NCBI GenBank assembly: GCA_029261135.1
Contig: JAJDBX010000047.1
Location: 1-64,000, forward strand
Direction of reading: 5' to 3'
Source of the DNA: Nitrospirota bacterium
GTDB taxonomy: Bacteria > Nitrospirota > Nitrospiria > SBBL01 > JAADHI01
Length of the DNA: 64,000 nt
In this document: positions 35,998-63,674 of the stretch, one piece after another
Position numbering within the stretch: the stretch's first letter is position 1
Layout: each line of letters begins with the position of its first letter
Program-made: the position numbers and the translations under genes
The notes under the pieces: generated by a model
What the model saw: the letters and a program-made list of their open reading frames with translations, nothing else
What the model was told of the DNA's origin: nothing
The model's database searches: none

Positions 35998-36020
35998 TTA
36001 TAAGCCCTCATACATCGTTG

Positions 36021-36875: not shown

Positions 36876-36900
36876 ATATTCCCTCTACAAAATGAATAGC

Positions 36901-37671: not shown

Positions 37672-37693
37672 ACTTGCTGTATCTCCTCCGATC

Positions 37694-38251: not shown

Positions 38252-38298
38252 GATCTAATTACTCCTCAATACCACCTTGCCAAGCGGAAACTTGGATT

Positions 38299-38790: not shown

Positions 38791-38918
38791 CCAAATAATT
38801 TGTTTATGAATAATTCCCGTAAAAAAAATTTTGTAAATACCACCCTATCTATGTCCACATCAACGATCAACTCAATAGGAGAAATTGTGATGGATTCTAA
38901 AATAATGGAATCAGATAA

Positions 38919-40499: not shown

Positions 40500-41241
40500 C
40501 ACCTTCAAGTTCCCAAGTCCTTGGTTTCCAGCCCGTATAATCATAGAGAAACATAATGACTTTCCATCGTTCTTCTTCAGATAGAATGAGCTCCCATCTC
40601 GGCATTGCTGAATCCCAAGGAGTCGATTCTTCAGGAAGACCAATCCCTCCTGTTTTGATGCGCCAAAATACAAATGATTCCATCAGCATCGAAATGGTAG
40701 TGGCATCAGCAAAATTAGCCGGCTTTACATTTAATGCATGAGCAAAGAACCCTTTACCATCTAACTTATCGCCATGACAGAAAACACAATTTTTGTAAAA
40801 TACTTCCCGACCTTCTTCAATATATTGTTCGTGATTGGCTTCATCGTCACCAAAAGGGTTGGTAAAACCCGCGGCAGAACCTGGAGGGGCCGGATGAATG
40901 ACACGTTGAGGAAAAGGGGGGTTAAAATTAGGCAACACACTTTGATAGGAACGAAAGCCAAAAAAGAGCGGGATAAGAATAAAAACGGCAATACGGCTCA
41001 GTTTCCGCAAACCACTTTCATTGTCATCCCCCCGAATAAAATCAACGATCGGAATATAAAAATTTCCAAAATCATCTTCAAAAATAGAAACGTAAAGCAA
41101 AATCGAAATAGTCACCAAGGTCATGTACATAAAGATGACACTTGAAGGAAGAGGACTTGTAATGAGAGGCATTCCCAACTTAAGTAATAAGTAAAAGCCC
41201 AATTCAAGCGCAAAAGCCTTTGCAATCAAAGGTAATTTCAC
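40492..41241 (-). CDS. Membrane-bound monoheme cytochrome c
   Basis: A 249-residue protein. Two or three N-terminal membrane helices (about residues 5-55 and 88-105) precede a periplasmic cytochrome c domain with CVFCHGDKLDGKG (about residue 155) and an axial Met in SAMPRWELILSEEERWKVIMFLY. It lies 2 bases after the diheme lipoprotein gene and overlaps the next gene by 8 bases. It probably relays electrons between the bc-type and oxidase modules. Confidence 0.87.
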   Translation of the reverse strand: MKLPLIAKAFALELGFYLLLKLGMPLITSPLPSSVIFMYMTLVTISILLYVSIFEDDFGNFYIPIVDFIRGDDNESGLRKLSRIAVFILIPLFFGFRSYQSVLPNFNPPFPQRVIHPAPPGSAAGFTNPFGDDEANHEQYIEEGREVFYKNCVFCHGDKLDGKGFFAHALNVKPANFADATTISMLMESFVFWRIKTGGIGLPEESTPWDSAMPRWELILSEEERWKVIMFLYDYTGWKPRTWELEGDE

Positions 41242-41243
41242 AG

Positions 41244-42056
41244 TTACATCTCCTCCCCGGCTTTTATTTCAGACTCACTCTCTTCAGTCGCAAGCTCATC
41301 ATTACCTGAAGCGTCTTCTCTTAAAGTACTCACATAGATTGCAATGGCAAGGGCATCCTCATCAGGCACATCTAAATTAGGCATTCGTGTACTCGCTTTA
41401 AAGGCTTGAGGATTTTTAATCCAGCGGAAAATAAATTGTGTCTGCAACATGGATCCTGCTTTAGATAAATCAGGCCCTAGTGTGCCTCCTTCACCATTGA
41501 CGACATGGCATGCATTACACCCGACCTCTTCAAAAATGTCACCTCCACTGGCAACGAGTTCTTCAAAAGCATCATCATCAGGCACCATAGATGCCATTAA
41601 TTCATCGAAGACCTTTTCTTTCACCCTTGCATATCTCGGCTTTTTATGATCAAAAAAGGCCTCTTTCGTCTCAGCATTTTCAAAAACAATGGGGGAGGCT
41701 TCATTCGGATGAAGCGTGCGAATATAGGCGACGAGAGACCAAAGCTCTTCCTCAGAGAAAACTTTACCCCATACCGGCATCCCTGCAGAGAGATCCACTC
41801 CATAACCACCGAGTTCAAGGACTTCATAGATCTCATCATTCGAGAGTTTCGCCATGTAGTCTTCTTCACCATCGGTCAAGTCACGGGGCGCCGGATCAAG
41901 GTTAGCGGCATTATATCCATCGCCATTCCCTCCCTCTCCATGACAAGAAGCACAAAACCGGCTAAAGATTTTATGGCCTTTGGCAACGTATTTGTCTTCA
42001 CATCCAGATGCCACCATCATAAGAATAACTAAGATTGGAAGAGTAAACGCCCTCAC
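41244..42056 (-). CDS. Diheme cytochrome c lipoprotein
   Basis: About 270 residues from the GTG at 42056. The signal peptide RAFTLPILVILMMVASGC ends in a lipobox, so the protein is lipid-anchored. The first domain has CASCHGEGGNGDG and MPVWGKVFSEEELWSLVAYIRTL; the second has CNACHVVNGEGGTLGPDLS and MPNLDVPDEDALAIAIYVSTL. An upstream ATG in the same frame (42194) would put 62 bases inside the oxidase gene and give no normal signal peptide, so I reject it. The second domain resembles the cytochrome c of cbb3/caa3 systems. Confidence 0.87.
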   Translation of the reverse strand: MRAFTLPILVILMMVASGCEDKYVAKGHKIFSRFCASCHGEGGNGDGYNAANLDPAPRDLTDGEEDYMAKLSNDEIYEVLELGGYGVDLSAGMPVWGKVFSEEELWSLVAYIRTLHPNEASPIVFENAETKEAFFDHKKPRYARVKEKVFDELMASMVPDDDAFEELVASGGDIFEEVGCNACHVVNGEGGTLGPDLSKAGSMLQTQFIFRWIKNPQAFKASTRMPNLDVPDEDALAIAIYVSTLREDASGNDELATEESESEIKAGEEM

Positions 42057-42132
42057 CTTTTCTCTAAAAAATAACCTTTTTATAACTGATTCTCCTTGAA
42101 ACCTATTGTCATTGAGACAAAAAATAATGGGA

Positions 42133-44556
42133 CTAAAACGACTGCGTATCGATCGACATAGCCAGATCTCCCACAGGCTCCATATTATCTTCATTGTGTT
42201 CAGCGGGTGTTACCTCTGGGGCCATGACCGGTTCTTCAGGAACAACATCCATCCCTTTTTTTGATGCAGCCTTTAATTCGTCTAGCGTTACCGTGACTTT
42301 GCCGCCATTACTCTGAACAAAAGCGATGATCGTGAGAAGTTCTTCCTCGGTAAGACCAATGGGGGCTTTATTGATAATGGGCATTTCTGCTGAATACATC
42401 ACCGGTTTGACCGGATCAAAATCGAGTTTTACATAGGCATCTGGCTTCGTTAGTGTCTCATAAATGAATTCCCGCGTGAGTCGCCCGCCCACCCCAAGTA
42501 AATTAGGACAACGACCCGCTCCGGCACCAATCGAATGACATAAGGCACATTGTCCCTTACTATAAAAAATATCTTGCCCTATCTGAACCATGTCATCCGT
42601 ACCCTTAATCTTCGTCAGATCCAACTCATTTTTCTCAGGAGGAAGACCAATCTTCTGAGGGACCTGATATCCGACATAGGTATAAGCCAACAAGAATGTG
42701 CCCACAACAGCCGTCACTTTAAGAAGAACATACTTCCCGCCCTCTTTTGGAATCTTACGTTCTTCTTCGGATTTATCCCCGAAAAGATCTGTAAACCACA
42801 TAAAAACGGGGGCAAGAAAGAAATACCGCGTCGAGAAACGATTATGACGAATTGTGAGTGAAGTCCAGAAGACGATACCCACCATGACGCAGAAAATCGC
42901 AGTGGATAACACAAAAAGAAAGGATGCAAGGCCGAGTGTCGGTGTGTAGGCATAGGCGGAGGTATCTTCCAATACCCCGTAAATGTGCCAGTGGACCCGC
43001 GAAGCAGAACGGGCATATCCCATCAGAGCCATGGTTAAAACTACAAAAACGGCATTGATGATCAAAGCATACTGAGACCGTGCAGGCATCACCCCCCACT
43101 TCATCTCATGGGTCAGCTTTGCCGATCTAAGTGAAAGAGCTGTAAGCGGAGTGATCGTAAAAAGGACAAAAAGAACCGCTAAGACCTGGGCCACTGAAAG
43201 TACATTCACACGGTAAACGGAGGGGACAAAATAACCATAGACCCCCAGCCAGATAATGATCACCACAGATGCCACCATCACAAGAACGGTGTAGATATTT
43301 GCCGCCTTACGCCATTTAACGGTGATTACCTTGTCTGCCCGCCAGTAAAGAATAAAACAGACAAAAGTCGTTAAGATCATTAAGTTAACAACGGTCAATT
43401 TTGCCGACATGACCCCGAATACACCCAGCAAAGGATGATGTGCGCCACCCATCGCCCTGGCCTCAGAAACGCTGGCGACAAGAGAATGAGGAGTCAACCA
43501 GACAGAAAAAGAACCGACCAGTGCAACCAACATAATAATGATCGCATTTTTATATTTCGGTGCGGAATGCGTTCGATAGGCGATGCCTTGCCAAAAATAA
43601 TAGTTGGCTCCGACAAAAAGAACACCGATGAGTACCGCTTGAAGAATGAAAAGCCAAGAAAGAATCCCTCCCATCAGTGTAATGCCCATCTGCTGGTTAT
43701 ACTCATAGACTTCGCGCATGAGAAAATAACCGGCAAAAGGCATCGGAAGAAGCCCGAAGACGCCGATAAAATTTCCAACATAGCCCATCCAATCGTAATG
43801 CTCTCTTTCTTCCTGCGTTTTCGCACCCAAATAAGCCACGCCTGCATAAGCACCGCAAACAAATCCTCCAAGGATCAGATTCCCAACAACGCGGTGAATA
43901 ATGACAGGAAGCCAGGTCGGATTATTGAGGGCAGTCCATGCTTTCTCCCACATCCCCAAACCAGGATTCAAAACCACCGGACTGGCCTGAAATGAAAGAA
44001 AACCACTCGGCAATATAACAAGCAGCATTCCAGCAACATTAAGCATCAGTCCCCAGAAAAGATGTAAGCCTTTCCGGTCTTGCCATTTATCCCATCTATC
44101 CCAATAGACATAAACGGAAAGAGTCTCGTAAAGGAAAAGAAAAAGATAGAGATAATAGGTGGGCTTAAAAATGTCTGCCATGGCTGTCATGAGTGTGGGG
44201 TAAAAGACGAGAAGCGCAAAAAGGAAGAAGATACCGACCATGGCCGTCGTTGCAAAACAAGCGACGATGAGATCCATAAATTCCTGAGCCAATCGGTCGT
44301 ATCGCTTTTCTCCTGTCATAATACCGACCACTTCAATAGAGATAATAAACATCGGCACACCCAAGACAAATGCCCCAAATAAAATGTGAACTTGGGACAA
44401 GACCCAGATCAAATTACGGCTCCCGATCCCCTCTATATCACGGTATACAGATTCATAGGTTTGGGCAAAGAGTGTGCCCGATGGGATTAAGAGAAGCATC
44501 ATAAAAATAAGACTGCTCCAAACCATCGGTTGTTTGATTGCTTTTTTAAAAGTCAT
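42133..44556 (-). CDS. Cytochrome bd-like oxidase subunit fused to cytochrome c
   Basis: About 807 residues; the ATG at 44556 follows GGGGG and is preferred over the one 21 bases upstream. The N-terminal 450-500 residues form a CydA-like multi-helix core: SQVHILFGAFVLGVPMF (possible heme ligand His), a second candidate His in PVIIHRVVGNLILGG. The GRQPW quinol-loop motif of true cytochrome bd is absent. More helices follow, then a C-terminal cytochrome c domain with CALCHSIGAGAGRCPNLLG and Met in AEMPIINKAPIGLTEEEL. Such bd-like oxidases are known from Nitrospira and relatives. The fused heme c suggests electrons arrive from cytochrome c rather than quinol. No separate CydB is present. Confidence 0.87.
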   Translation of the reverse strand: MTFKKAIKQPMVWSSLIFMMLLLIPSGTLFAQTYESVYRDIEGIGSRNLIWVLSQVHILFGAFVLGVPMFIISIEVVGIMTGEKRYDRLAQEFMDLIVACFATTAMVGIFFLFALLVFYPTLMTAMADIFKPTYYLYLFLFLYETLSVYVYWDRWDKWQDRKGLHLFWGLMLNVAGMLLVILPSGFLSFQASPVVLNPGLGMWEKAWTALNNPTWLPVIIHRVVGNLILGGFVCGAYAGVAYLGAKTQEEREHYDWMGYVGNFIGVFGLLPMPFAGYFLMREVYEYNQQMGITLMGGILSWLFILQAVLIGVLFVGANYYFWQGIAYRTHSAPKYKNAIIIMLVALVGSFSVWLTPHSLVASVSEARAMGGAHHPLLGVFGVMSAKLTVVNLMILTTFVCFILYWRADKVITVKWRKAANIYTVLVMVASVVIIIWLGVYGYFVPSVYRVNVLSVAQVLAVLFVLFTITPLTALSLRSAKLTHEMKWGVMPARSQYALIINAVFVVLTMALMGYARSASRVHWHIYGVLEDTSAYAYTPTLGLASFLFVLSTAIFCVMVGIVFWTSLTIRHNRFSTRYFFLAPVFMWFTDLFGDKSEEERKIPKEGGKYVLLKVTAVVGTFLLAYTYVGYQVPQKIGLPPEKNELDLTKIKGTDDMVQIGQDIFYSKGQCALCHSIGAGAGRCPNLLGVGGRLTREFIYETLTKPDAYVKLDFDPVKPVMYSAEMPIINKAPIGLTEEELLTIIAFVQSNGGKVTVTLDELKAASKKGMDVVPEEPVMAPEVTPAEHNEDNMEPVGDLAMSIDTQSF

Positions 44557-44592
44557 GACAATCCCCCTTCCATTCATAATTATTGAGGAATT

Positions 44593-46389
44593 TCAAGATT
44601 GTTTCTCAACAACAGTCGACCAGGGGTTCAATAGACGTCTAAGTGCCTTGGTCGCATAAAAATCAAAAGTCGCAAATTTAGGAACATGAAAATGAAACCA
44701 TCCAAACTTCATCCCAGCAAACATCAAGGCGGCACCGAGACCGATTGCAAGCAAACCAGAACCCAGGTTATGCAAGACAGTTGAAAATGTTTCCGCTCCC
44801 GGATAGAGAATGCCCATGCCCGAGACCTGGGTCTGAACATTGTACAAAAGCTGGTATCCATGAGACGCGGCATCATAACCAAACCCGGACAAAGCGGGCC
44901 CAATGGCCGTTTCAAGTAACCAATTCGGGAATAATCCTAAAAAGAGAATCGCAACGGAAAACCCAATCATCCCCACGCGCATCGGCAAAGGTGCGGGCTG
45001 CACATCCTTATACTTTTCCGGACGCTTCCCCCGAAAAGTCAACATAAAGAGCTTCATGTTTGAGGCAAAGGTTCCTGCTGCGGTAATAATAAAAATCTTC
45101 TCCACAATCCATAGGATTGAATCCTGCCCATGTTCCGCAGATTCGATAATGGCATGATGAAGAATTGTTTTACTTGCAAAACCATTAAACAAGGGAACAC
45201 CAGAAATGCCACATACAGCAATAAAGAGGCAAATCGCCGTAACCGGCATATTTTTCATGAGTCCGCCAAGCTTGTACATATCCAACTCGTTGGTTCTGAA
45301 ATAAACAGCGCCAACCCCTAAAAAGAGGGCGGCTTTAAAGAGGGCATGGTTGACAATATGGTATAAAGCACCCGCAAGCCCCATCGCCCCATCCTTACCA
45401 AGGTAAGCCGCACAGCCAATCCCCATGACAATATATCCCATCTGGCTAATACTATGGAAGGCGAGCATTCGCTTGGAATTAGAAGCAAGTAAGGCCGAAA
45501 TCACAGCAAAGAACATCGTGATGGTTCCAATCAAAATTGTTGCATAACCAATGTTGCTTAAGGTCAGCCAATCTGCCATTGAGGCAGCCCCCTCAGGGAC
45601 AAAGAGCAAATTGACCACTCTGAAAATGCCGTAGGCTCCTGCCTTAATCATGGCGGCGGAAAGAAGTGCAGAAGCAGGAGAAGGTGCAACGGGATGGGCT
45701 TCCGGCAACCAGAAATGTTCAAAAAAGAGGCCGGCCTTCCCTCCAAATCCGATGACCATTAAAGCAGCGATTTGATATTTTAATCCTGTACTCATGGTAG
45801 AGGCGACACTACCCGAAACCGCTGCGATATCCACTCCGCCCGTATAGTGTTTCAAGAGGACGATCCCTGATAGTAAGAGCAGGCTTGTGGCAACACCGAC
45901 ATATAGATAAAGGTTTGCGCCTTTGATTGCCGCCTTATCTCCTTTGTGCGCAATCAAAGGATAAGGGAAGATCAAAAGGCCCTCAAAAAAGATAAAGAGT
46001 GTAAAGAAATCACCCGCAAGTAATACGCCGAGATTCGCCGCCAATGTCAGCAAGGAGAAGAAATCGTAGCGACAACGGTTCTTTTCATGGGTCATATAAG
46101 TGATGCTAAAGATGGAACAAAATATCCAGAGGAATGCAGTAATAAGCGCGATAAGCAGACCCGCTGAATCAACTTTAAACGTCAACTCCATCCCGGGAAG
46201 CCAAGAAAGCGCGTAAAACACCCCTCCGTCTGTGGCACCACTATAGATACTTAACAACAGGAGAAATGGAATCGTGCATGAAGCGATAACGATCCCGTCC
46301 CTGTATTTGTCCGAATCTTTCTTGATGAATAAGGCAAAAGCCCCGATGATCGGGATGGCAATTACCCAGACAGGAATGGCCGTCTCCAT
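44593..46389 (-). CDS. NuoL/MrpA/HyfB-like proton-translocating membrane subunit
   Basis: A 598-residue polytopic protein of the complex I/Mrp antiporter-like family. Family marks are FFTLFIFFEGLLIFPYPLIAHKG (conserved Glu in the fifth helix), FGGKAGLFFEHFWLPEAHPVAPSPASALLSAAMIKAGAYG (Lys and the HP-X-PSALLS block) and AFHSISQMGYIVMGIG. It lacks the long C-terminal lateral helix seen in NuoL. It lies between the NuoM-like gene and the bd-like oxidase, with 36 bases to the latter's start, and no NADH-dehydrogenase genes are near, so it may couple oxidase turnover to ion movement. Confidence 0.9.
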   Translation of the reverse strand: METAIPVWVIAIPIIGAFALFIKKDSDKYRDGIVIASCTIPFLLLLSIYSGATDGGVFYALSWLPGMELTFKVDSAGLLIALITAFLWIFCSIFSITYMTHEKNRCRYDFFSLLTLAANLGVLLAGDFFTLFIFFEGLLIFPYPLIAHKGDKAAIKGANLYLYVGVATSLLLLSGIVLLKHYTGGVDIAAVSGSVASTMSTGLKYQIAALMVIGFGGKAGLFFEHFWLPEAHPVAPSPASALLSAAMIKAGAYGIFRVVNLLFVPEGAASMADWLTLSNIGYATILIGTITMFFAVISALLASNSKRMLAFHSISQMGYIVMGIGCAAYLGKDGAMGLAGALYHIVNHALFKAALFLGVGAVYFRTNELDMYKLGGLMKNMPVTAICLFIAVCGISGVPLFNGFASKTILHHAIIESAEHGQDSILWIVEKIFIITAAGTFASNMKLFMLTFRGKRPEKYKDVQPAPLPMRVGMIGFSVAILFLGLFPNWLLETAIGPALSGFGYDAASHGYQLLYNVQTQVSGMGILYPGAETFSTVLHNLGSGLLAIGLGAALMFAGMKFGWFHFHVPKFATFDFYATKALRRLLNPWSTVVEKQS

Positions 46390-46454
46390 CTAAACGCTCC
46401 TCAAAACAATTTCGCAGTCATAAAAATACTTTTTAAATAGTCTTCTTAAAATCA

Positions 46455-47999
46455 TCATTGCATCAATTTAACAAATTGCATTAGAAATTCAGGGAATATA
46501 CCCAATAGCATGGAAACCACTGCAGTGATGCACAAGGGAACAAGAACAAACAGAGGTGATTCCTTAATCTGACTGACCACAGTGCCTCTTAGGCTCCCTG
46601 AAGCAGCAGCGCCCACACTCTGGGGAACCAAGATAGGAGCAACTTCCTCTTCATCCTCCTCAGATTTCCCAAAAAAACCATTGATCACAATCGGGACAAA
46701 ATAGAATGCATTTAACAGCGCGCTCGTCGCCAAAACAATCAGGGTCCAAAATTCATTCGCTTCTGTGGAGCCGACCATTAAATACCACTTACTGACAAAG
46801 CCCCCTGCAGGAGGAATACCCACCATACTGAGCGTGGCAATCGCAAAAGCGGCAAAGGTCCAAGGCATCTTCCGACCCAAGCCATTCAATTGAGAAACAT
46901 GCGTCTTTTTACTTGCCACATAAATTGAACCGGCACAGAAAAAGAGGGTAATTTTAGCAAAAGCATGCATTGCGATGTGCATAATACCACCGGTCAATCC
47001 ACTGGGGGTGAGTAAAGCGCCCCCTAAAACCATGTAAGAGAGTTGACTCACGGTAGAATAGGCAATCCGCTCTTTTAGATTATTGGCTTTCATGCAGTAG
47101 ATCGAGGCCGTAATAATCGTAATAGAAGCGATAATGGCGGTCACCTCCCCCAGACTCAATGCACCGAGATGCAATGCACCCACCAAATCAAAACCAAAAA
47201 TATTAATGATGACGCGTAAGACACAAAATGCACCTGTATTCACAACGGCAACAGCGTGCAAAAGGGCACTGACTGGAGTAGGCGCAACCATTGAAGCAGG
47301 AAGCCAGGAATGAAGCGGCATAAATGCCACCTTGCCAATTCCAGCCAAATAACAAATATAAATCAGCACGAGGAGCGTTTTATCAACCCCCTCGGGGAAA
47401 ATACCGTTAGGCGCAAAATCAACTGAACCGGCAAAGTAGTAGGTACCAAGAATCGCCGGAATCAAAAAGAGTTTCGAGGTCCCGAGAAGGTAAGCAAGGT
47501 ATTTGTTGGCTTTTTCCCATGCATCGTGGGTTTCATGATGGGCAACCAGGGGATAGGTAAAAAAGGTAATTAGCTCGTAAAAGAGAAAGAGTGTAAACCA
47601 ATTATTCGAAAAGGCGGCTCCCATTGTGGCAACCAAGGTGACCGCAAAACAAAAATAGAACCGCGTTTGCGCATGTTCGTTCAAGCTTCGCATGTATCCA
47701 ATAGAGTAAAAGGACGTCAAGATCCAAGTGAAAGAAGCAACAAGCCCGAAAACAAGGCCTAAACCATCAACCCTAAATCCGATCGGAACCGAAGGCCAAA
47801 ATGAATAAAGTATATAATGAAGGGTATTTCCCTCAAGAACAGAGGGGATCATGCTGAGGACGACGAAAAACATCAAAAATGCCGTTATCAGCGTCGCCCC
47901 TTCCCGAAGGTTCGGTTTCTTACGAAACCAAAGAATAAATCCAGATCCAATAGTTGGGATCAAGATGGCTAAAAGGGGTTTAATTGAATCAATTTCCAT
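46455..47999 (-). CDS. NuoM/MrpD-like proton-translocating membrane subunit
   Basis: A 514-residue polytopic protein. It has NWFTLFLFYELITFFTYPLVAHHET (the conserved membrane Glu), AGIGKVAFMPLHSWLPASMVAPTPVSALLHAVAVVNTGAFC (Lys and the HSWLP-X-A block) and AYSTVSQLSYMVLGGAL. It is the paralogue of the neighbouring NuoL-like gene, 65 bases away. In complex I each such unit moves one proton; a free pair beside a bd-like oxidase suggests an electrogenic oxidase complex. Confidence 0.9.
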   Translation of the reverse strand: MEIDSIKPLLAILIPTIGSGFILWFRKKPNLREGATLITAFLMFFVVLSMIPSVLEGNTLHYILYSFWPSVPIGFRVDGLGLVFGLVASFTWILTSFYSIGYMRSLNEHAQTRFYFCFAVTLVATMGAAFSNNWFTLFLFYELITFFTYPLVAHHETHDAWEKANKYLAYLLGTSKLFLIPAILGTYYFAGSVDFAPNGIFPEGVDKTLLVLIYICYLAGIGKVAFMPLHSWLPASMVAPTPVSALLHAVAVVNTGAFCVLRVIINIFGFDLVGALHLGALSLGEVTAIIASITIITASIYCMKANNLKERIAYSTVSQLSYMVLGGALLTPSGLTGGIMHIAMHAFAKITLFFCAGSIYVASKKTHVSQLNGLGRKMPWTFAAFAIATLSMVGIPPAGGFVSKWYLMVGSTEANEFWTLIVLATSALLNAFYFVPIVINGFFGKSEEDEEEVAPILVPQSVGAAASGSLRGTVVSQIKESPLFVLVPLCITAVVSMLLGIFPEFLMQFVKLMQ

Positions 48000-48086
48000 A
48001 CTTTAACTTATATCTCTACTCACTTAGCGTCTTCATTGACAGAGGGAAATCAACGAACACAATCCCTAATTCCTTCAAATACACTA

Positions 48087-48614
48087 CTATTTTTCAACAG
48101 TATGTTCGATCTCTGAGTGATCATGAACCGCCGGTTTATTGCCATGAGACCATGTATGCTCATAGGCGACCGTCTTCCAAATTTCTTCCTCTGTAAGCTC
48201 TTTACCCCATGCAGGCATACTGGTCTTTTTCACCCCTTCAGAGATCCGCCAAAACCAGTAGCTTTCTGAAAGTCGGTTCATCCGCTTCGTCGAACGAAAA
48301 TCTTTGGCGCCTCTCTTTTTTGGACGATCTTTTTTCTTATTAATGGCATGGCAAGTCGCACAACCATCTTTAGCAACCTTCTTTTTTCTCTTGTACACAT
48401 ATTCTATTTTTCTTGTTTCAAAAATCTTCTTACCTTCTGCGATAATCTTCGCATCGGTCCACCATCCGCTTGGCATCTTCTTCCCGGCAAATTCTTTCGG
48501 GACAGGCTTCAGTGGCTTATCATCGTCATCTTTTTTCGCTTGTCCGAGAGAGGGTATCAGAAGCACAACTAACATCACTAGACAGAACATAGAAACCAGA
48601 AATTTACGACTCAT
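48087..48614 (-). CDS. Lysine-rich periplasmic monoheme cytochrome c
   Basis: A 175-residue protein with a signal peptide (FLVSMFCLVMLVVLLIPSLGQA) and one CATCH heme site followed by a very basic stretch (INKKKDRPKKRGAK). The probable axial Met is in TSMPAWGKELTEEEIWKTVAYEH. The C-terminus is His-rich (HTWSHGNKPAVHDHSEIEH). The strong positive charge suggests docking to acidic partners. It is the second cytochrome of the operon, 22 bases after the tetraheme gene. Confidence 0.88.
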   Translation of the reverse strand: MSRKFLVSMFCLVMLVVLLIPSLGQAKKDDDDKPLKPVPKEFAGKKMPSGWWTDAKIIAEGKKIFETRKIEYVYKRKKKVAKDGCATCHAINKKKDRPKKRGAKDFRSTKRMNRLSESYWFWRISEGVKKTSMPAWGKELTEEEIWKTVAYEHTWSHGNKPAVHDHSEIEHTVEK

Positions 48615-48636
48615 TCTTTAACCCTTTCATTATGTT

Positions 48637-49815
48637 TTATCCTTCGTTTCCTTCTTCAGAAGCATCTTCATCGGCATGAGCAGTATTTCCTCTGTCGATC
48701 TGGCTATTGAATGAATCAATCATGTGACAACCCATACAATTTTTTGTTTCAACAAGTTTCTTTCCCTTTTTAAGCTGTTCTGGATCTGGCATCGCTTCAT
48801 TAGCAACCGTCCTCGCGGCTGAAGCATTCCCACTGATACTATAGAGGTAGGCTAATAGAGAACGAATTTCGTCATCTGGTATATTAAAATTAGGCATAGG
48901 GGAATCGGGACGAATTGCCTGCGGATTTTTAATCCAATAAAACAGCCATTCAGGCCGTATTCGCTCAAGTGCATAAGAAAGTTCAGGACCAACAACCCCT
49001 CCTTCTCCATCAGCGGAGCGCTTATGACAACCATCACAGGCATACTGCTCAATAAAAAGAAACTCTCCCTTTTCTATTTCCGCCGAGTCAGTAGGATCCC
49101 ACCCCGTCAACACACTGGAATTTATCCCAGCGTCTTTTAAAGTCATTAAATAGGCGACAAGTGCATCAAGCTCTGCATCCGTAAAATAGAAGTTTGGCAT
49201 TTTCGCTTTACTAAAAGGCATGTAGCCTATCGGACGCAAGCGCTCAGGTTGTTTTAAAAATCGGGTCAGCCATTCTTTATTTAACTTACTGCCTTCATGA
49301 CCAATATTAGGACCAATAGGACGTAGAGATGTCGCCTCTTTTGAATGACAAACCAAGCACTTTTCATCTCCTGTTTTTTTCAGATCGACAAAGCGAACCA
49401 CATCCGAGAGCTTTGTCCCATTTTCCTCCGACAAGGTTCGGATATAAGCGACAAGGTCATTGATCTGTTCAGGCGAAAAAACACTTCCCCACGGTGGCAT
49501 ATAATAGGATATATCGATAGCTGCACCACCGCCTTCAATAGTTTCATAGATTTCTTCATCGTCTAGCTTATCGATGGCAGAATCAGTGAGGTCTGTCGGA
49601 TGCACATCGCCAAGACTATCTGCATTGAGACCATCCCCTTTTCCAGAAACACCATGACAAACGGCACAGTAATACTCGTAGAGATGTTTTCCCTGTCTGG
49701 GGTCGGGTTCTTCCCCTTGGGCTAGAGAAGGAAGTGAGATCACTACAGAAACGACAAGACAAATAGGAACAACCAAGCGGACTAATCTAAAAACCGTCTT
49801 TTCTCTTCCGTGCAA
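48637..49815 (-). CDS. Periplasmic tetraheme cytochrome c, first cytochrome of the operon
   Basis: About 392 residues. Four heme motifs are seen: CAVCHGVSGKGDG, CLVCH, CDGCHKRSADGEGG and CMGCH. Three Met-ligand-like loops follow the pattern MPPWGSVFSPEQINDLVAYIRTL, AKMPNFYFTDAELDALVAYLMTL and SPMPNFNIPDDEIRSLLAYLYSI, so the protein looks like repeated class I domains plus a C-terminal heme. I prefer the TTG at 49815, which has AAAGGG seven bases upstream and gives a normal signal peptide (RLVVPICLVVSVVISLPSLAQG); the frame is open to a TTG at 49848. It probably collects electrons for the downstream oxidase. Confidence 0.86.
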   Translation of the reverse strand: MHGREKTVFRLVRLVVPICLVVSVVISLPSLAQGEEPDPRQGKHLYEYYCAVCHGVSGKGDGLNADSLGDVHPTDLTDSAIDKLDDEEIYETIEGGGAAIDISYYMPPWGSVFSPEQINDLVAYIRTLSEENGTKLSDVVRFVDLKKTGDEKCLVCHSKEATSLRPIGPNIGHEGSKLNKEWLTRFLKQPERLRPIGYMPFSKAKMPNFYFTDAELDALVAYLMTLKDAGINSSVLTGWDPTDSAEIEKGEFLFIEQYACDGCHKRSADGEGGVVGPELSYALERIRPEWLFYWIKNPQAIRPDSPMPNFNIPDDEIRSLLAYLYSISGNASAARTVANEAMPDPEQLKKGKKLVETKNCMGCHMIDSFNSQIDRGNTAHADEDASEEGNEG

Positions 49816-50023
49816 ATCCAAACCCTTTCCATACGTGCAGGCTAACAATCCCCTCTTTCTCCTTAATCTTGAGGAGTCTAAAAAGGGGGCGAACTTAATG
49901 TTTTACGCAAAAACCGAAACAACGAAACTTCGAGGTGGAAAGCAATGAACCCTTCCACAGAGCCAACAGAATAAATCGATCAATATTCTAAAGTCTCCAC
50001 AAAAAAATCTCCACCCGACATTT

Positions 50024-57535: not shown

Positions 57536-60241
57536 ATGTATAAATCAATATATATCCCAGTCGACAACTCGGACTTCTCAAACACGGCCATTGACATCGG
57601 AATGGTGTTAGCCCAGCAGTTTGGTTCGAAAGTGATTGGAAGCCACGCCTATGCAGCAAAGCTACATGATAAGCGTTTCAAACAGATGGAAGCAGGCTTG
57701 CCGGAAGAATATCATGACGAAAATGAATTGGAACGGCAAAGAAAAATCCACGATTCTCTCATTACCCGCGGACTCGAAATTATCACCGATTCCTACCTCG
57801 ATATCATTGATGAAAAAGCAAGCGAATGCAATGTCCCCGTAGAGCGGGTTTCACTCGAAGGCAAAAATTACAAAGTCCTCGTCGAAGACATTGTTAAAAA
57901 TGGCTACGACCTCGTTATTTTAGGCGCGCTGGGTGTTGGCGCAGTCAAGGAAAGCATGATCGGCAGCGTGACCGAACGCACCGTCCGCCGTGTAAGAAAA
58001 TCAGACATTTTTGTGGTGAAAGAGCCTACGAATGGTGTTTCTGAAAATATGTGTAATCGAAAAATTATTGTTGCCGTCGATGGCAGTCATCACTCTTTTG
58101 GTGGCTTTAAAACCGCATTGGCCCTTGCGAAAGCCTACGACATGCCCTTGGATGTGGTCTCTGCATTTGACCCCTACTATCATTATGCTGTTTTTAATTC
58201 CATCTCAGGGGTACTAAATGAAGAAGCTGGCAAAGTGTTTCGTTTTAAAGAACAAGAAAAGCTCCATGAAGATGTGATCGATTCCGGCTTGGCCAAAATA
58301 TACCAATCTCACCTTGAGGTCTGTACAAAGTTGGCTGAGGAGGAAGGGGTAAAGATCAGCACCTCCCTACTTGATGGAAAACCCTTTGAGAAAGTCCTTC
58401 AGTACGTCAAAAAAGAAAAACCCTGGTTGCTGGTCGTCGGCCGGATCGGGGTGCATTCTGATAGCGAAATGGATGTCGGCAGCAACTCTGAAAATCTCGT
58501 TCGCATGGCCCCATGTAACGTCTTGATTTCAAACAAAACCTACATGCCACCCATTGATGCTATTGCAGAATACACCGTAGCCTGGACAGAAGAGGCCTCG
58601 AAACGCATGGAGAAGGTGCCGATTTTTGCACGAGGCGTTGCAAAGACAGCGGTCTATCGTTATGCCGTTGAAAAGGGGTTTTCGATTATTACCAACTCCG
58701 TTGTAGATGGGGCGATGGGAGACATCCTGCCCCCGTCCTCCATTGCGATGATGAAAAACATGGGTAAAGTCCTCGATGAAAAAGGAATCGACCGTGACAA
58801 GATGAAAGCCGACGATGCCGTCGCCGAAAGTCTGCGCAGCGGTGGCATTTCTGGCATGATGACCAATATCGTGAAAGACCGCGATACCGAACGCGCGGAA
58901 AGCTACGATGAAAAAGCGAAGTCCGATTTTCACGTTTGCAGTAACTGCGGATATACGGCAAAAGGCGCTAAACCGGTGACATGCCCGATCTGTAGCGCAG
59001 AAAGTGATGCCTTCAATTTTTTGGATAAGTCACTTTTTGAATCAGCAGCCAAGGCCGAAGGCGGACTTTCTCAGGAAATCGGTTACGATGGTGTGCCCTT
59101 GAATTGGACCGAGGACGCGAAAAACACGCTTCGTGCCATACCGGCAGGATTTGAACGGAGACGCGCAAAAGCAAAAGTTGAAAAGACCGCTCGAAAAATG
59201 GGGTTTCAAACCATTTCAAATGAATTTGCAATTCGCATGATCAAAGGGCTGGACGAAATTCTTGAAGAAGGGGTTGAAATCGGCGCCAATGCAATCTCAA
59301 AAGCAGTCAGCCAGATGAAGGCGGAAAAAGAAAGCATCGCAACTCCGGAACCCCAACAGGCTCCTCCAGAATTGACTTGGACCCCTGAAGGGAAAGCACG
59401 CATCGAAAAAGTCCCTGTGGGCTTTATGCGTGATGCGACACGACAACATATCGAAAACTACGCTTTTTCGAACAAAATAACGAATATCACTTTAGAGGTG
59501 GCTGAAGCCGGAATTGCAAAAGCGACAGAAGAGATGGAGTCTGTGCTTTCTGGCGCATCCAGTTTGGAAGAGATTCGGGAAAAAATGTCTCAGATGGCAG
59601 GAGCTGAAGAAGTCGCTGCACCACAAGAAAAGTCTTTCCATTTCTGTGGCATGTGCGGTCATGTGGTTCGAGAAGTTCCTCAAAGTTGCCCCATTTGCGA
59701 AGCAAAAAAAGGACGTTTTTTATTTATGGAAGAAGCGGTTGATTATTTTATTTGTATGGTCTGCAGCCTCGTCACCAAAAAAGTTTCTCCTGAACATTGT
59801 TCGCTCTGCGGTGCAGGGGGTGAATATGGATTAAAACTGGAGAGAAAAGAAAGTCCGGTCAAAGACGATGGCACACTGATGCGTTGGACTGAAGACGCAT
59901 CTCAAATTCTCTCAGAAATTCCAGAAGGTTTTATGCGAGATATGACCCGATGGCGTATTGAAGCCGATGCCCGTAAGAAAGGCATTCGTGAAGTGGATCC
60001 CTCTGTGGTTAAGAACAAATATACCCAGTGGGCTCAAGTTTCAAGAAAAGTAGAACGTCGGCTTGCATGGGATGATGACGCCATCTCCCGGATAGCGATC
60101 ATCCCTTCCTTTGTACGTGGAACCGTTGTGAATGAAATTGAAGCCTGTGCCTCTGAAAAAGGACTTTCCAAAGTGACAACAACCTTGCTCAATGAAGTCA
60201 CTAAACGCTGGGCTGAAGCCATGCGAAATCAAGGATTTTAA
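57536..60241 (+). CDS. Two universal-stress domains plus five PCP_red-like repeats and three zinc ribbons
   Basis: A 901-residue cytoplasmic protein. Residues 1-160 and about 178-335 are UspA domains; the first keeps the ATP-binding pattern GALGVGAVKESMIGSVTE. Five repeats follow of the type W-T-E-A-X5-L-X2-I-P-X-F-X-R, with Trp at 350, 524, 615, 784 and 845, matching the PCP_red domain known from the C-terminus of light-independent protochlorophyllide reductase BchB/ChlB. Between them lie three rubredoxin-like CXXC pairs: Cys468/471/483/486, 704/707/718/721 and 740/743/755/758. No photosynthesis genes are present. It may sense or carry a tetrapyrrole or redox signal. Its stop overlaps the start of the radical SAM gene (TAATG). 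Confidence 0.85.
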   Translation: MYKSIYIPVDNSDFSNTAIDIGMVLAQQFGSKVIGSHAYAAKLHDKRFKQMEAGLPEEYHDENELERQRKIHDSLITRGLEIITDSYLDIIDEKASECNVPVERVSLEGKNYKVLVEDIVKNGYDLVILGALGVGAVKESMIGSVTERTVRRVRKSDIFVVKEPTNGVSENMCNRKIIVAVDGSHHSFGGFKTALALAKAYDMPLDVVSAFDPYYHYAVFNSISGVLNEEAGKVFRFKEQEKLHEDVIDSGLAKIYQSHLEVCTKLAEEEGVKISTSLLDGKPFEKVLQYVKKEKPWLLVVGRIGVHSDSEMDVGSNSENLVRMAPCNVLISNKTYMPPIDAIAEYTVAWTEEASKRMEKVPIFARGVAKTAVYRYAVEKGFSIITNSVVDGAMGDILPPSSIAMMKNMGKVLDEKGIDRDKMKADDAVAESLRSGGISGMMTNIVKDRDTERAESYDEKAKSDFHVCSNCGYTAKGAKPVTCPICSAESDAFNFLDKSLFESAAKAEGGLSQEIGYDGVPLNWTEDAKNTLRAIPAGFERRRAKAKVEKTARKMGFQTISNEFAIRMIKGLDEILEEGVEIGANAISKAVSQMKAEKESIATPEPQQAPPELTWTPEGKARIEKVPVGFMRDATRQHIENYAFSNKITNITLEVAEAGIAKATEEMESVLSGASSLEEIREKMSQMAGAEEVAAPQEKSFHFCGMCGHVVREVPQSCPICEAKKGRFLFMEEAVDYFICMVCSLVTKKVSPEHCSLCGAGGEYGLKLERKESPVKDDGTLMRWTEDASQILSEIPEGFMRDMTRWRIEADARKKGIREVDPSVVKNKYTQWAQVSRKVERRLAWDDDAISRIAIIPSFVRGTVVNEIEACASEKGLSKVTTTLLNEVTKRWAEAMRNQGF

Positions 60242-61629
60242 TGACCTATCAAGCCTATTCTGTCTCATGGAATCTGACACAGCGCTGTAACCTTTTCTGC
60301 ACCCATTGTTACTTAAGTGCTTTCCCGAATGCCGACATCTCCGGTGATTTAACAACGGAAGAGTGTTTCAAGGTCATGGACGATATTGAAAAGGTGAATC
60401 CGAATGTCTTCCTTATCCTTACCGGTGGCGAACCACTGGTGAGGAAGGATATTTTCGACATCGCGGCCTATGGTTCCGACAAAGGCTTTACCTGTGTCCT
60501 GGGCACAAATGCTGTTCTTTTAGGGAAAACAGAAGCACGCAAGATGCGAGAAAGCGGACTTCAAGGGGCCTCAATCAGCCTGGATTCTGTTGATCCAAAA
60601 AAACACGATCAATTCCGGAAACTTGAACATTCCTGGAAGAATGCCATTCGGGGCATCGAATTTCTGAAGGAAGAAGGCCTCGATTTTTCAATCCACATGA
60701 GCGTGATGTCTTGGAATGTTTCTGAAATCCCATTAATGATCGATTTCTCCCGAAAGATCGGGGCAAAAGTCCTCAACTTTTTCTTCCTGGTTCAAACAGG
60801 TCGCGGCGAAGGGATTGAGGACATTACCCCCAGCCAATACCGGGAAATACTGAACTACCTTGCCCGAGCACAGGGCGTGGGCACAAAAGACGCGGCGGTT
60901 AAAGGATCTATTTTCAAAAATTTCGATGATCCCTGGACAAGTTCAGCGGGAGAAAGCCATGGCCTAATCCTTCGGGCAAAATGCGCACCCCATTTCCGTC
61001 GAGTGATCTATGAATTGGATAACGATTCTCCGCTATTAAAAAATTATGCCCAGGGCAGTTGTCCCGCAGGGAAATACTATTGTCGGATTACCCCCTCGGG
61101 AGACATTACGCCCTGTCCTTACATGCCTGTGACCGCAGGAAACCTCAGAGAACAACCCTTTGATGAAATCTGGCACAACTCCCCAGTTTTGAATGATTTA
61201 CGGGAGCCTGAACTGGGTGGCCGCTGCGGGGATTGTGAGTTTTCCGAAATGTGCAGCGGATGCCGGTGTCGAGCCTATGCGGCTCATGGAGATTATCTGG
61301 CGGAAGACCCGGCTTGTGATTATCAGCCGGGACAGTATGGTGGAGAAAAAATCACATTAGGCGCGGATCAGACCTTTGGCTTGGAAGTCAAAATGACCTT
61401 ACAATGGAGTCCGGCTTCCCTTGAGCGCTTGAATGGCCTGCCTTCCTTTGCCAGAGGCATGGTGTCCAGTGGCGTTGAACGTTATGCCAAAGAACAGGGC
61501 ATTCAAGTCATTACACCCGAAGTCATGCAAAAGGTGCGAGAAGCAGCCGAACTTCGCACGGGCCGCCGTTTTAGTTTTACAGAGTTTAACCGGACTGTGC
61601 CCGCAATGACCGATTCCGAAAAGAAATGA
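60241..61629 (+). CDS. Radical SAM/SPASM enzyme with C-terminal PCP_red-like repeat
   Basis: A 462-residue enzyme. The radical SAM cluster ligands are Cys16, 20 and 23 in RCNLFCTHCY; LILTGGEPLVRKD is the SAM-binding GGEP motif. The SPASM region (CPAGKYYCRITPSGDITPCPY, then CGDCEFSEMCSGCRC) binds further 4Fe-4S clusters. It resembles NirJ/AhbC/AhbD, which alter heme side chains, and also PqqE-type peptide maturases. The last 75 residues are a PCP_red-like repeat (Trp389, LPSFARGMVSSGVERYAKE), as in both neighbours, so the repeat probably recruits a shared substrate or partner. Confidence 0.9.
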   Translation: MTYQAYSVSWNLTQRCNLFCTHCYLSAFPNADISGDLTTEECFKVMDDIEKVNPNVFLILTGGEPLVRKDIFDIAAYGSDKGFTCVLGTNAVLLGKTEARKMRESGLQGASISLDSVDPKKHDQFRKLEHSWKNAIRGIEFLKEEGLDFSIHMSVMSWNVSEIPLMIDFSRKIGAKVLNFFFLVQTGRGEGIEDITPSQYREILNYLARAQGVGTKDAAVKGSIFKNFDDPWTSSAGESHGLILRAKCAPHFRRVIYELDNDSPLLKNYAQGSCPAGKYYCRITPSGDITPCPYMPVTAGNLREQPFDEIWHNSPVLNDLREPELGGRCGDCEFSEMCSGCRCRAYAAHGDYLAEDPACDYQPGQYGGEKITLGADQTFGLEVKMTLQWSPASLERLNGLPSFARGMVSSGVERYAKEQGIQVITPEVMQKVREAAELRTGRRFSFTEFNRTVPAMTDSEKK

Positions 61630-61640
61630 GAGGTCTTTAA

Positions 61641-62630
61641 ATGTTTGGATCAAAAAAAGAAGCAAGTACAATTTCATGGACGCCTGAAGCTGAAGCCAGA
61701 TTAAAAAAAGCCCCTTTCTTCTTAAGAAAGATGGTTCGAAATCTATCTGAAAAAAAAGCGACCGAGCTTGGCATCACCGAAATCACCGAAGAAGTCCTTG
61801 CGCAATTTAAAGATAAAATGATGACGCCAATGGCCGCACAAGGAACCGGGGCGGCACACGATGAAGCCGGGGTGGAAACAAAAACCCTTGCCTGGACACG
61901 TGAGGCCACAGAACGGCTCGAAACCGTGCCGGAATTTATGCGCAGCATGATTAAAAAAATTGCAGAAGAAGTCGCACTTGAGCGTGGACACCTTGAAGTC
62001 GACATCGAACTCCTTAAAAAAGCGGAAGCCCTTGGCGATGCGCAAGAAAACAGCAATGAGCCAGAAATTCCCTGGACGGATGCAGCAACCGTCCGACTAG
62101 AGCAGAAAATCGCAGAATCCCCTGACATGGCACGAGAGTTTGTCCGGGACATGTTAAAAAGTGATGCAGAGGATTTGGCACGGGAATTGGGCATCACACG
62201 TATTGATCTCGCCGCCGCCACACAGATATGGGATTCACCCAAAAGTGACATCACCTGGAGCCTTGAAGCCGAAAAACGTTTAATGACTTCCCCAGATTTC
62301 GTCCGAAGCGGGATCAAAAAAGCTGCTGAGCGCCGCGCCCGAAAAATGGGACTCACGACAATTGGCTCAGAACACCTGACCAAGTTTCGCAACGAAGCCA
62401 TGATGAAAGCCATGAAACGACTTCGTACTTTTGGGTACGACGAGATGACTTTTGATGGCTTTGAGGATGCCAAGGCCAAGATCAAACGACTCAAAAACAA
62501 CCCCGAGGCGGAAAAACGTCTGGACGATATCAAATCCTACATGGAAACCAAGGGTAAAGTCGGCCTAATTGATGAAGAGATGCTAGAACAAATGAAGGAC
62601 TACCTCAAAGATCCTTCAAAAAAAATGTGA
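61641..62630 (+). CDS. Protein built from four PCP_red-like repeats
   Basis: A 329-residue soluble protein starting 11 bases after the radical SAM gene. Four repeats of about 60 residues have Trp at 13, 85, 145 and 206: each reads W-T/S-X-E-A-X-X-R-L, then P-X-F-X-R-X-M/G-X-K, then a helix with E-X-X-A-R-X-X-G, then I-T/D. The third is the most diverged. A helical C-terminal region (EAEKRLDDIKSYMETKG) ends at LKDPSKKM. There are no zinc ribbons or Usp domains. It may be a scaffold for the same ligand as the two upstream proteins. Confidence 0.8.
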   Translation: MFGSKKEASTISWTPEAEARLKKAPFFLRKMVRNLSEKKATELGITEITEEVLAQFKDKMMTPMAAQGTGAAHDEAGVETKTLAWTREATERLETVPEFMRSMIKKIAEEVALERGHLEVDIELLKKAEALGDAQENSNEPEIPWTDAATVRLEQKIAESPDMAREFVRDMLKSDAEDLARELGITRIDLAAATQIWDSPKSDITWSLEAEKRLMTSPDFVRSGIKKAAERRARKMGLTTIGSEHLTKFRNEAMMKAMKRLRTFGYDEMTFDGFEDAKAKIKRLKNNPEAEKRLDDIKSYMETKGKVGLIDEEMLEQMKDYLKDPSKKM

Positions 62631-62652
62631 GATCAACCCTTAGAGAGACACA

Positions 62653-63090
62653 ATGAATCCTTCTGGAACCATTATTCACTGGTTACATCTGATGTCCGCT
62701 ATCATCTGGGTAGGCGGAAATGCTTTTCAGGCCTTTATCCTTATTCCTTTTATTAAGCCTGACAATCCAAGGCATGATATCCTTCTCAAGATTTCAAAGC
62801 GATTTACCCGCCTGTCTCTGGGTTTGCTCATCCTTTTGGTCATCACAGGAGGCATGAATATGGGTATTCGGGCCGCCGGAACAGAAGAAATCCCGAGTGG
62901 TTATATCTCTGCCCTGGCGATCAAGGTCTTTCTCATTGTCGCAATGGCTGCGGTTCCGCTCTTTAGCATGATTCGCCCCGATGATGAGAAATCTTCGAAG
63001 GTTCCCAGCTTGTCTTATGCCAAACTCAGTTTTGCTATTGGGATGGTCATCATCTTTCTTGCAGCAATGTTGAGAATGTGGACGTTTTAG
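62653..63090 (+). CDS. CopD-like four-helix membrane protein
   Basis: A 145-residue integral membrane protein with four helices. The first contains HWLHLMSAIIWVGGNAFQAF, the His/Trp-Val-Gly-Gly pattern of CopD and related heme- or copper-handling membrane proteins. The second is LSLGLLILLVITGGMNMG. It lies 22 bases after the PCP_red-repeat protein and probably belongs to that operon, which would bring a membrane heme or metal function into the system. Confidence 0.8.
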   Translation: MNPSGTIIHWLHLMSAIIWVGGNAFQAFILIPFIKPDNPRHDILLKISKRFTRLSLGLLILLVITGGMNMGIRAAGTEEIPSGYISALAIKVFLIVAMAAVPLFSMIRPDDEKSSKVPSLSYAKLSFAIGMVIIFLAAMLRMWTF

Positions 63091-63674
63091 TTTTTTCCAA
63101 AACCCGTCAGACAGTTCAGCACCTTCTTTTTATCTTTATTGCCCTTCTCCTGCTCCCAACAGATCTGTACGCGATTCATGCGATTTTTAAAGGCGTCTCC
63201 CCTATCCCAAGGGAACATGGGCCTTTAAAACTCGATATGGGACGTGACAACTTCCTTCAATTTTCCAAAAGTAAAGAAGTGCCTAAAGTCATTGGTCAAT
63301 TTTCGGATGAACATCAATACGAATTTGATCCCTCTGTTTTTTCTAAAGATGTCGAAAAAGTCATTTCCGATTTTTACAAAGACCGTCTTTTTCGAATCGA
63401 AATCAACTATAAATCGATGTCAAAAAAAATCGCACCCGTACAGGCCATCATCGATCAAAACACCCAACTTCATGGCCCTCCACGAATCAATACATTAACG
63501 GGACTCCGTCTTATTTTTTGGGATGACGGCGCAACGCGCCTGATTATGCAAATCGACGAAAATAACGCGCAGCTCACCTACTCTCTAACCTATATTGATG
63601 ACGATCTTTTTCATCAAGCCAGCCGGGATCGGGTTCAAAGAGAGATAGGCGGGCGTTCTTTTTACGGAAAATAA
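63078..63674 (+). CDS. Exported protein of unknown function
   Basis: A 198-residue protein whose start lies 13 bases inside the preceding gene. The N-terminus has a signal peptide (LLFIFIALLLLPTDLYA), so it is periplasmic or surface-attached. The mature part is rich in beta-type sequence (RLIFWDDGATRLIMQIDENNAQLTYSLTYIDDD) and lacks Cys. I recognise no family. It is the last gene of the operon. Confidence 0.65.
   Translation: MDVLVFSKTRQTVQHLLFIFIALLLLPTDLYAIHAIFKGVSPIPREHGPLKLDMGRDNFLQFSKSKEVPKVIGQFSDEHQYEFDPSVFSKDVEKVISDFYKDRLFRIEINYKSMSKKIAPVQAIIDQNTQLHGPPRINTLTGLRLIFWDDGATRLIMQIDENNAQLTYSLTYIDDDLFHQASRDRVQREIGGRSFYGK

Follow-up and report, generated by a model that had tools for sequence, protein, structure and literature searches.

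A widespread PCP_red-containing gene set in Nitrospirota and other phyla suggests a hidden pathway for a respiratory cofactor

An operon with ten PCP_red copies and its companion loci

What does the PCP_red domain (PF08369) do when it occurs in arrays, with no photosynthesis gene alongside? The window, a stretch of 64,000 nucleotides, raises this question with a tight five-gene operon at positions 57536-63674, encoded entirely on the + strand, with intergenic gaps of 11 and 22 bases and slight overlaps where the first two and the last two genes meet. The operon as first described is genuine, and a genome search listed all ten places of the predicted PCP_red copies, distributed over three consecutive proteins (five, one and four). 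Its features are as follows:

57536..60241, +, Usp-Usp/rubredoxin-like ribbon/PCP_red x5 protein, 901 aa (Pfam)
58583..58711, +, PCP_red copy 1, 49.2 bits, above cut-off
58934..59014, +, rubredoxin-like ribbon 1 (CxxC...CxxC), RUBY_RBDX residues 467-493
59105..59224, +, PCP_red copy 2, 37.2 bits
59378..59506, +, PCP_red copy 3, 40.8 bits
59624..59806, +, rubredoxin-like ribbons 2 and 3, approximate limits (RUBY_RBDX stretches; CxxC pairs in the sequence)
59885..60013, +, PCP_red copy 4, 42.1 bits
60068..60196, +, PCP_red copy 5, 36.5 bits
60241..61629, +, radical SAM/SPASM/PCP_red enzyme, 462 aa (Pfam)
60286..60309, +, CxxxCxxC motif for the SAM-binding [4Fe-4S] cluster; C16, C20 and C23 invariant in 33 homologues
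60982..61317, +, CAPH motif (C248) and SPASM-region cysteines, invariant
61405..61539, +, PCP_red copy 6, C-terminal to the radical SAM enzyme, 48.6 bits
61641..62630, +, PCP_red x4 array protein, C-terminal tail conserved, 329 aa (Pfam)
61677..61811, +, PCP_red copy 7, 59.6 bits
61893..62024, +, PCP_red copy 8, 51.2 bits
62073..62213, +, PCP_red copy 9, degenerate, 26.2 bits, under cut-off singly
62256..62384, +, PCP_red copy 10, 44.5 bits
62653..63090, +, CopD-like membrane protein, 145 aa, CopD below cut-off
63078..63674, +, exported protein without family match, 198 aa

Nine of the ten copies passed the Pfam cut-off of 32.5 bits individually, and all three proteins exceeded it (169 bits for the fivefold protein, 45 for the radical SAM enzyme and 156 for the fourfold array), showing that the repeats are true PCP_red domains. 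A sequence search of the PDB with PCP_red matched 2kru, 2l09, 2ynm, 2xdq and 3aek. The domain is rare: Synechococcus alone was positive among 14 control genomes, so a chance match is excluded.

In the first protein, Pfam reported two Usp domains (PF00582, 115 bits), three RUBY_RBDX stretches (54 bits) and the five PCP_red copies. Sequence inspection found the G-2x-G-9x-G(S) nucleotide motif intact in both Usp domains, whose membership of the family follows from the score and the G-2x-G-9x-G(S/T) pattern. The fourth gene product scored 28.9 bits against CopD (PF05425; cut-off 32.1) and its relatives score lower, so that the predicted CopD-like membrane protein is a weak match to the CopD family; its residues H12, G22, P32, T65, G66, Y84 and K91 do not vary between the window lineage and relatives as distant as Poribacteria. 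On inspection, the N-terminus of the exported protein resembles a signal sequence; the protein was seen only in the window's own lineage, where homologues at the same place are 46-58% identical.

The original prediction was correct about the operon but not about the extent of the system, of which the operon is one part. The window genome contains 13 PCP_red places, all within proteins of three loci. One further locus encodes an Mrp-type Fe-S ATPase along with two other proteins, one joining a zinc ribbon to PCP_red and one resembling haem oxygenase; in the other, a B12 radical SAM gene precedes a gene that fuses a [2Fe-2S] ferredoxin to PCP_red, with a bd-like cytochrome nearby. Four distinct redox or regulatory modules carry a fused PCP_red, and the domain is also joined to further copies of itself. 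The loci split in the window genome are joined in Poribacteria (loci L103, L110 and L131) and in locus L107, where the Usp-PCP_red, Mrp, zinc-ribbon-PCP_red, CopD-like and radical SAM-PCP_red genes lie together. In most loci, a Usp-PCP_red orthologue is immediately upstream of the radical SAM-PCP_red gene. The array gene adjoins Mrp, zinc-ribbon-PCP_red and haem-oxygenase-like genes in L057, L066 and L087, and a homologue of its product is fused to the radical SAM-PCP_red protein in L075. The array protein had no match in a plasmid collection.

PCP_red as a candidate docking module

The domain had been expected to hold a tetrapyrrole here, as part of a system sensing, storing or modifying haem. 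Across 422 distinct PCP_red copies, neither His nor Cys is conserved at any position, and the sole frequent Met occurs in 52%; the domain therefore offers no iron ligand, and we rejected it as a haem ligand. The three PCP_red proteins of the window also lack c-type CxxCH motifs by inspection. These results speak against the view that the arrays bind, store or sense haem with the Usp domains as stress sensor, which we regard as quite improbable even though the Usp nucleotide motifs are intact and PCP_red is otherwise known from protochlorophyllide reductase; apart from the Usp domains, nothing supported sensing or storage. Without a conserved haem ligand, and judging from its sequence conservation, PCP_red seems to serve for docking and not for carrying haem.

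Comparison with the dark-operative enzyme, DPOR (BchL/BchN/BchB, ChlLNB), delimits the likeness. There, PCP_red is found at BchB C-termini (PDB 2kru, 2ynm, 2xdq and 3aek), and a P-loop ATPase and a ferredoxin are involved too. In contrast, PCP_red in the window genome has no nitrogenase-like NB core beside it and does not belong to a DPOR, the ATPase is of the Mrp/NUBPL type rather than BchL, the domain is found in arrays and attached to other enzymes, and phototrophy is not known in the hosts. The PCP_red part alone accounts for the matches to the BchB equivalog models, and no BchB-type protein lies beside any PCP_red copy found in the window genome. If the docking role is true, this orphan C-terminal domain of protochlorophyllide reductase gains a testable role other than pigment binding.

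The radical SAM enzyme and its possible substrate

Pfam reported Radical_SAM, SPASM and a single PCP_red in the 462-aa protein. Together with the CxxxCxxC motif, the SPASM-region cysteines C274, C292, C329, C332, C338, C341 and C359, invariant in 33 homologues, place it in the radical SAM/SPASM superfamily. Its predicted NirJ/Ahb-like character was borne out, since the nearest families are NirJ2 (312 bits) and AhbD (TIGR04545, 306 bits), both far under the cut-off of 500; scores of 192 bits for NirJ (TIGR04051, cut-off 515) and 111 for PqqE (TIGR02109, cut-off 381) put it outside those families. AhbD, NirJ and NirJ2, which belong to the pathways for siroheme-derived haem and haem d1, are the closest radical SAM/SPASM enzymes by profile and tree and share its CAPH motif and cysteine pattern. 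The radical SAM-PCP_red proteins nonetheless form one clade of their own with 100/100 support, drawn from several phyla and near but outside AhbD, and they differ in their scores far below the cut-offs, their C-terminal PCP_red, their gene neighbours and their occurrence where haem b is made otherwise. A second PCP-fused radical SAM group clusters with anammox AhbD-like enzymes (99/98). No nir genes were noticed in the loci read.

The closeness of the NirJ2 and AhbD models might point to an alternative haem b synthase, but the AhbD role is largely excluded, retaining only a very slim probability. In addition to the separation in the tree, protoporphyrinogen/coproporphyrinogen oxidase (PPOX) and ferrochelatase are encoded in the window genome, where they make such a role unnecessary, and in its relatives. 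Anammox genomes, in which our searches found neither enzyme, carry a separate AhbD-like protein (495-498 bits, cut-off 500) besides the radical SAM-PCP_red protein (about 290-345 bits). No protein exceeded the TIGR04545 cut-off in 23 genomes. Haem b synthesis was rejected on the basis of the PPOX, ferrochelatase and AhbD inventories.

An AlphaFold2 model of the enzyme (pLDDT 80, pTM 0.79) had PqqE (6c8v, best match), SuiB and anSME as nearest solved folds. This likeness, together with a SPASM domain with complete auxiliary-cluster cysteines, could mean that the enzyme matures a protein or peptide as those enzymes do, for instance a cupredoxin or a respiratory cytochrome subunit; the other PCP_red proteins would then present the client and donate electrons. 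Cupredoxin-like genes (C-x2-H-x2-M) directly upstream of Usp-PCP_red in Rokubacteria and L107 fit this idea, and the presence of SCO1 and CopD-like genes in the neighbourhood may point to copper sites. The haem-oxygenase-fold protein of the Mrp locus also gives a weak TENA/PQQC match, a further resemblance to the PqqE system. We nevertheless consider peptide maturation somewhat unlikely, because the AhbD/NirJ2 profiles score about 300-327 bits, far above PqqE at 101-132, no pqq genes were seen, no small precursor peptide was noticed adjoining the radical SAM gene, and Pfam reported no peptide-recognition domain.

The B12 radical SAM gene raises another possibility, namely that the system modifies a quinone or other lipid-soluble carrier of these respiratory chains. 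This gene is directly upstream of Usp-PCP_red in Nitrospira and of ferredoxin-PCP_red in the window lineage, and its products are related to cyanobacterial Slr0320 (NF045585; 443 bits in Nitrospira and 468 in the window genome, under the cut-off of 775, hence outside the family). According to the part of PMC8065906 consulted, electrons pass slowly from QA to QB in an slr0320 mutant, and methylation of a quinone was proposed; that part mentions no link with PCP_red arrays. An O-methyltransferase also occurs near the Nitrospira gene with two PCP_red copies. Quinone modification is still improbable, as the B12 enzyme is also found without radical SAM-PCP_red (e.g., family f24), did not turn up close to it in the loci of Poribacteria, Rokubacteria or anammox bacteria, and the core radical SAM enzyme groups with haem-type enzymes in the tree.

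Distribution, respiratory neighbours and a putative mechanism

PCP_red was present in 114 of 114 sampled genomes of the class, usually in 9-14 copies, and in 51 of 182 genomes elsewhere in the phylum, mostly in 1-3 copies, the two sets having been split by hand. Relatives of the radical SAM enzyme occurred in 156 of 164 class genomes, and radical SAM-PCP_red proteins also in Rokubacteria, Poribacteria, Nitrospinota and anammox bacteria; the genes co-occur widely, within the class and in other phyla. Essentially every sampled member of Nitrospira's class has the gene set, as do anammox bacteria and Nitrospinota, and these groups account for much of global nitrite turnover. We found no mention of it in the literature searched, whose coverage excluded most subscription journals; this shared gene set of nitrite oxidisers, anammox bacteria and several relatives is undescribed.

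The predicted tie to cytochromes holds, mostly in the form of operon neighbours in other phyla. COX3 and COX4 lie beside the system in Rokubacteria, COX3, COX4 and SCO1 in Poribacteria, bc complex genes in L107 and Scalindua, NxrB in Brocadia, and a bd-like cytochrome near the twofold PCP_red gene of Nitrospira. Control searches gave one weak match in 18 arbitrary 20-kb windows, which were few and hand-picked; some of the neighbourhood query genes had themselves been taken from these loci. The 10 kb around the radical SAM locus held none of the respiratory genes searched for in most Nitrospira and Nitrospina. A link to nitrite oxidoreductase alone was rejected, NxrB being absent in the window genome, its relatives G005/G011, G023 and Poribacteria. 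As this enzyme is missing from the window genome and Poribacteria, the gene set follows no single respiratory complex.

The gene set hints at a hidden pathway for building or repairing a respiratory cofactor. Our favoured, though tentative, reading is a system of several enzymes that matures a cofactor for respiratory electron-transfer complexes, with PCP_red docking and haem as the preferred putative substrate. PCP_red would be the docking module shared by the radical SAM enzyme, the Usp-rubredoxin protein, the [2Fe-2S] ferredoxin and the zinc-ribbon partner of the Mrp-type ATPase, and the PCP_red-only arrays may act as a scaffold gathering these partners. The AlphaFold2 model of the fourfold array protein, built from five sequences, was poor (pLDDT 59), so this scaffolding role is proposed from sequence. 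The radical SAM enzyme, being on the AhbD/NirJ side, would most likely act downstream of ordinary haem b synthesis, modifying a haem or a precursor that bears one. Mrp may provide Fe-S clusters, the ferredoxin and ribbons electrons, and the Usp pair could make the reaction ATP- or energy-dependent, while the CopD-like protein might retain the product or couple the step at the membrane. Counting against this reading, peptides are common substrates of SPASM enzymes, and the Usp, ribbon and Mrp modules are of a generic kind. If the system makes or installs a cofactor, part of these organisms' respiratory chemistry has been missed so far.

A more specific proposal, which we hold to be unlikely, is that PCP_red serves as a general docking domain for an undescribed complex of radical SAM enzyme, Usp-rubredoxin protein, ferredoxin, Mrp ATPase and CopD-like membrane protein, which makes a previously unknown modified haem. 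The high-potential respiratory chains using it would be those of Nitrospira, Nitrospina, anammox bacteria, the window lineage, Rokubacteria and Poribacteria.

The operon, its repeat and two companion loci

The five genes at 57536-63674 lie on the + strand with intergenic gaps of at most 22 bases. In Pfam analyses the first protein (Usp-PCP) combines a pair of Usp domains with three rubredoxin-like ribbons and five PCP_red repeats. The second (rSAM-PCP) has a single PCP_red besides Radical_SAM and SPASM, and the third (the array protein) has four PCP_red. This bears out the predicted 5+1+4 repeats in three consecutive proteins, and profile matching, whose failure had been named as refuting the idea, was positive, nine of the ten PCP_red places exceeding the curated cut-off singly in the genome profile search. 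The fourth product is CopD-like, with a score under the cut-off, an invariant His near the N-terminus and an invariant Lys further along; a possible resemblance to HemJ serves as a lead only. The fifth matched no Pfam or NCBIfam family. Approximately 8 kb upstream of the operon, a large respiratory cluster (34874-49848) contains a bd-like cytochrome that carries a c-type haem domain, membrane subunits of the proton-pump type, Rieske, a split cytochrome b and several multihaem cytochromes.

The original prediction that PCP_red holds a tetrapyrrole as in protochlorophyllide reductase was not upheld. The conserved positions are W1, P13, F15, R17, E25, A28, G32 and I/V36; no conserved His or Cys was found among 422 distinct copies, and Met occupies position 19 in 52%, which argues against iron ligation by the domain. 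Haem storage or sensing is a rival explanation for the system. Solved relatives are the BchB C-terminal domain (2kru), Asr4154 (2l09) and full DPOR structures. As the common trait of PCP_red members is fusion to a redox or nucleotide-using partner, we infer that the domain may be a docking module.

The window genome has two further PCP_red loci. On contig C41 (L010), an Mrp/NUBPL-type P-loop ATPase gene precedes those for a Cys-rich zinc-ribbon-like protein with two PCP_red (Zn-PCP) and a haem-oxygenase-fold protein of the iron-containing redox enzyme type; after these come genes for lipoyl synthase and dihydrolipoyl dehydrogenase (L010:5246-8889). Contig C62 (L011) encodes a B12-binding radical SAM protein akin to cyanobacterial Slr0320 and, next after it, a [2Fe-2S] ferredoxin-PCP_red fusion, whose PCP_red scores 24-25 bits, under the cut-off (E about 1e-5), with cytochrome bd-like genes nearby. 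Several family members retain this pair. The Slr0320 relative is the basis for another rival, quinone modification (PMC8065906). Such relatives (L011:6702-8279, L163:5870-7495) occur widely among Nitrospirota that are not phototrophs, and some of the families that have them lack rSAM-PCP.

Conservation of the gene set

The three loci belong to one system, because genes lying at separate loci of the window genome stand together elsewhere. Usp-PCP, Mrp, Zn-PCP, CopD-like and rSAM-PCP genes share one stretch in Poribacteria and at locus L107; the array gene adjoins Mrp, Zn-PCP and haem-oxygenase-like genes at three loci (L057, L066, L087); the radical SAM enzyme is fused to the array protein, conserved C-terminal tail included, at L075; and a B12 radical SAM gene directly precedes Usp-PCP in Nitrospira. 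Co-occurrence elsewhere, whose absence would likewise have counted as refuting, was found as well, Usp-PCP lying directly upstream of rSAM-PCP in Nitrospira and Rokubacteria as in the window lineage. The PCP_red gene set is a real, conserved, multi-component system with a well-supported architecture. A literature search, with most subscription journals outside its reach, found no described counterpart. The newness lies in the architecture; if the mechanism were ordinary radical SAM maturation, the system would be a variant of that.

PCP_red is a rare domain, and Synechococcus was the one control genome of 14 to contain it. Among 296 genomes drawn from the phylum, with the class split counted by hand from rows, it occurred in all 114 genomes of the window's class (usually 9-14 copies) and in 51 of 182 outside it (mostly one to three). 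A radical SAM relative was found in 156/164 class genomes (hand count) by whole-protein search, which does not prove the PCP_red tail in each. Named genomes with rSAM-PCP include Nitrospira and other Nitrospirota, Nitrospinota, Rokubacteria/Methylomirabilota, Poribacteria and the anammox bacteria Brocadia and Scalindua.

The radical SAM enzyme

The CxxxCxxC motif and SPASM-region cysteines are kept throughout rSAM-PCP homologues. The enzyme had been called NirJ/Ahb-like, and NirJ2 and AhbD are indeed nearest in NCBIfam, though with scores far below their cut-offs. AhbD and NirJ remove side chains from haem-type macrocycles (review PMC7242693). In a 47-protein tree, 30 rSAM-PCP proteins formed one clade (100/100) separate from AhbD-like enzymes. 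The window protein clusters with Rokubacteria (100/100) rather than Nitrospira, which makes a transfer of the gene between phyla probable. C-terminal PCP_red also marks a second radical SAM lineage, which joins the anammox AhbD-like enzymes (99/98):

L189:4403-5794, directly after a Usp-PCP gene
L072:3583-4968
L079:990-2378

These groups share a CAPH motif. The closest solved structure to the predicted rSAM-PCP model (pLDDT 80, pTM 0.79) is PqqE, and the fold alone therefore leaves a small molecule or a peptide as substrate; peptide or metalloprotein maturation is a further rival.

A role as haem b synthase was rejected. The window genome encodes protoporphyrinogen/coproporphyrinogen oxidase (341 bits) and ferrochelatase (297 bits), and Brocadia and Scalindua have, besides rSAM-PCP, a separate AhbD-like protein (495-498 bits versus a cut-off of 500, thus 2-5 bits short; L200, L201, L202). 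Whichever way haem b is made, rSAM-PCP therefore does something additional. Profile searches of Brocadia and Scalindua gave no match over cut-off to protoporphyrinogen oxidase or ferrochelatase, which, with the near-cut-off AhbD, suggests that these bacteria make haem via the siroheme route.

Respiratory neighbours and a candidate mechanism

Respiratory genes adjoin PCP_red genes in several phyla. In Rokubacteria and Poribacteria, genes for cytochrome oxidase subunits III and IV stand ahead of Usp-PCP, joined in Poribacteria by SCO1; genes for Rieske, cytochrome b and a multihaem cytochrome c lie upstream at L107 and beside rSAM-PCP in Scalindua; nitrite oxidoreductase genes adjoin Usp-PCP in Brocadia; and bd-like cytochromes occur near PCP_red genes in Nitrospira as on contig C62. 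Among eighteen arbitrary 20-kb windows from genomes of the same kinds there was one weak match, a comparison with few controls and with query genes partly taken from these PCP_red loci. The predicted tie to cytochromes holds, chiefly through operon neighbours in other phyla; most Nitrospira and Nitrospina rSAM loci lack a neighbour of the tested kinds. Nitrite oxidoreductase was rejected as the common client because neither Poribacteria nor the window genome encodes it.

We favor a maturation system that would act on haem or a haem-bearing precursor for respiratory complexes. On array proteins, PCP_red would bring the radical SAM enzyme together with Mrp as its source of Fe-S clusters and with the ferredoxin and rubredoxin-like ribbons as donors of electrons, and the nucleotide-binding Usp pair might be an ATP-dependent switch.

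In Rokubacteria and at L107, the gene immediately before Usp-PCP encodes a cupredoxin-like protein. Periplasmic cupredoxin-like proteins with a carboxypeptidase-regulatory tail adjoin PCP_red or bc-complex genes (L107:5561-6283, L099:7095-7844, L098, L129, L149). In Nitrospira (L235:9910-10404 with L235:11350-12330), a short Cys-rich protein with two PCP_red is encoded close to both a gene of the O-methyltransferase family and a bd-like cytochrome.
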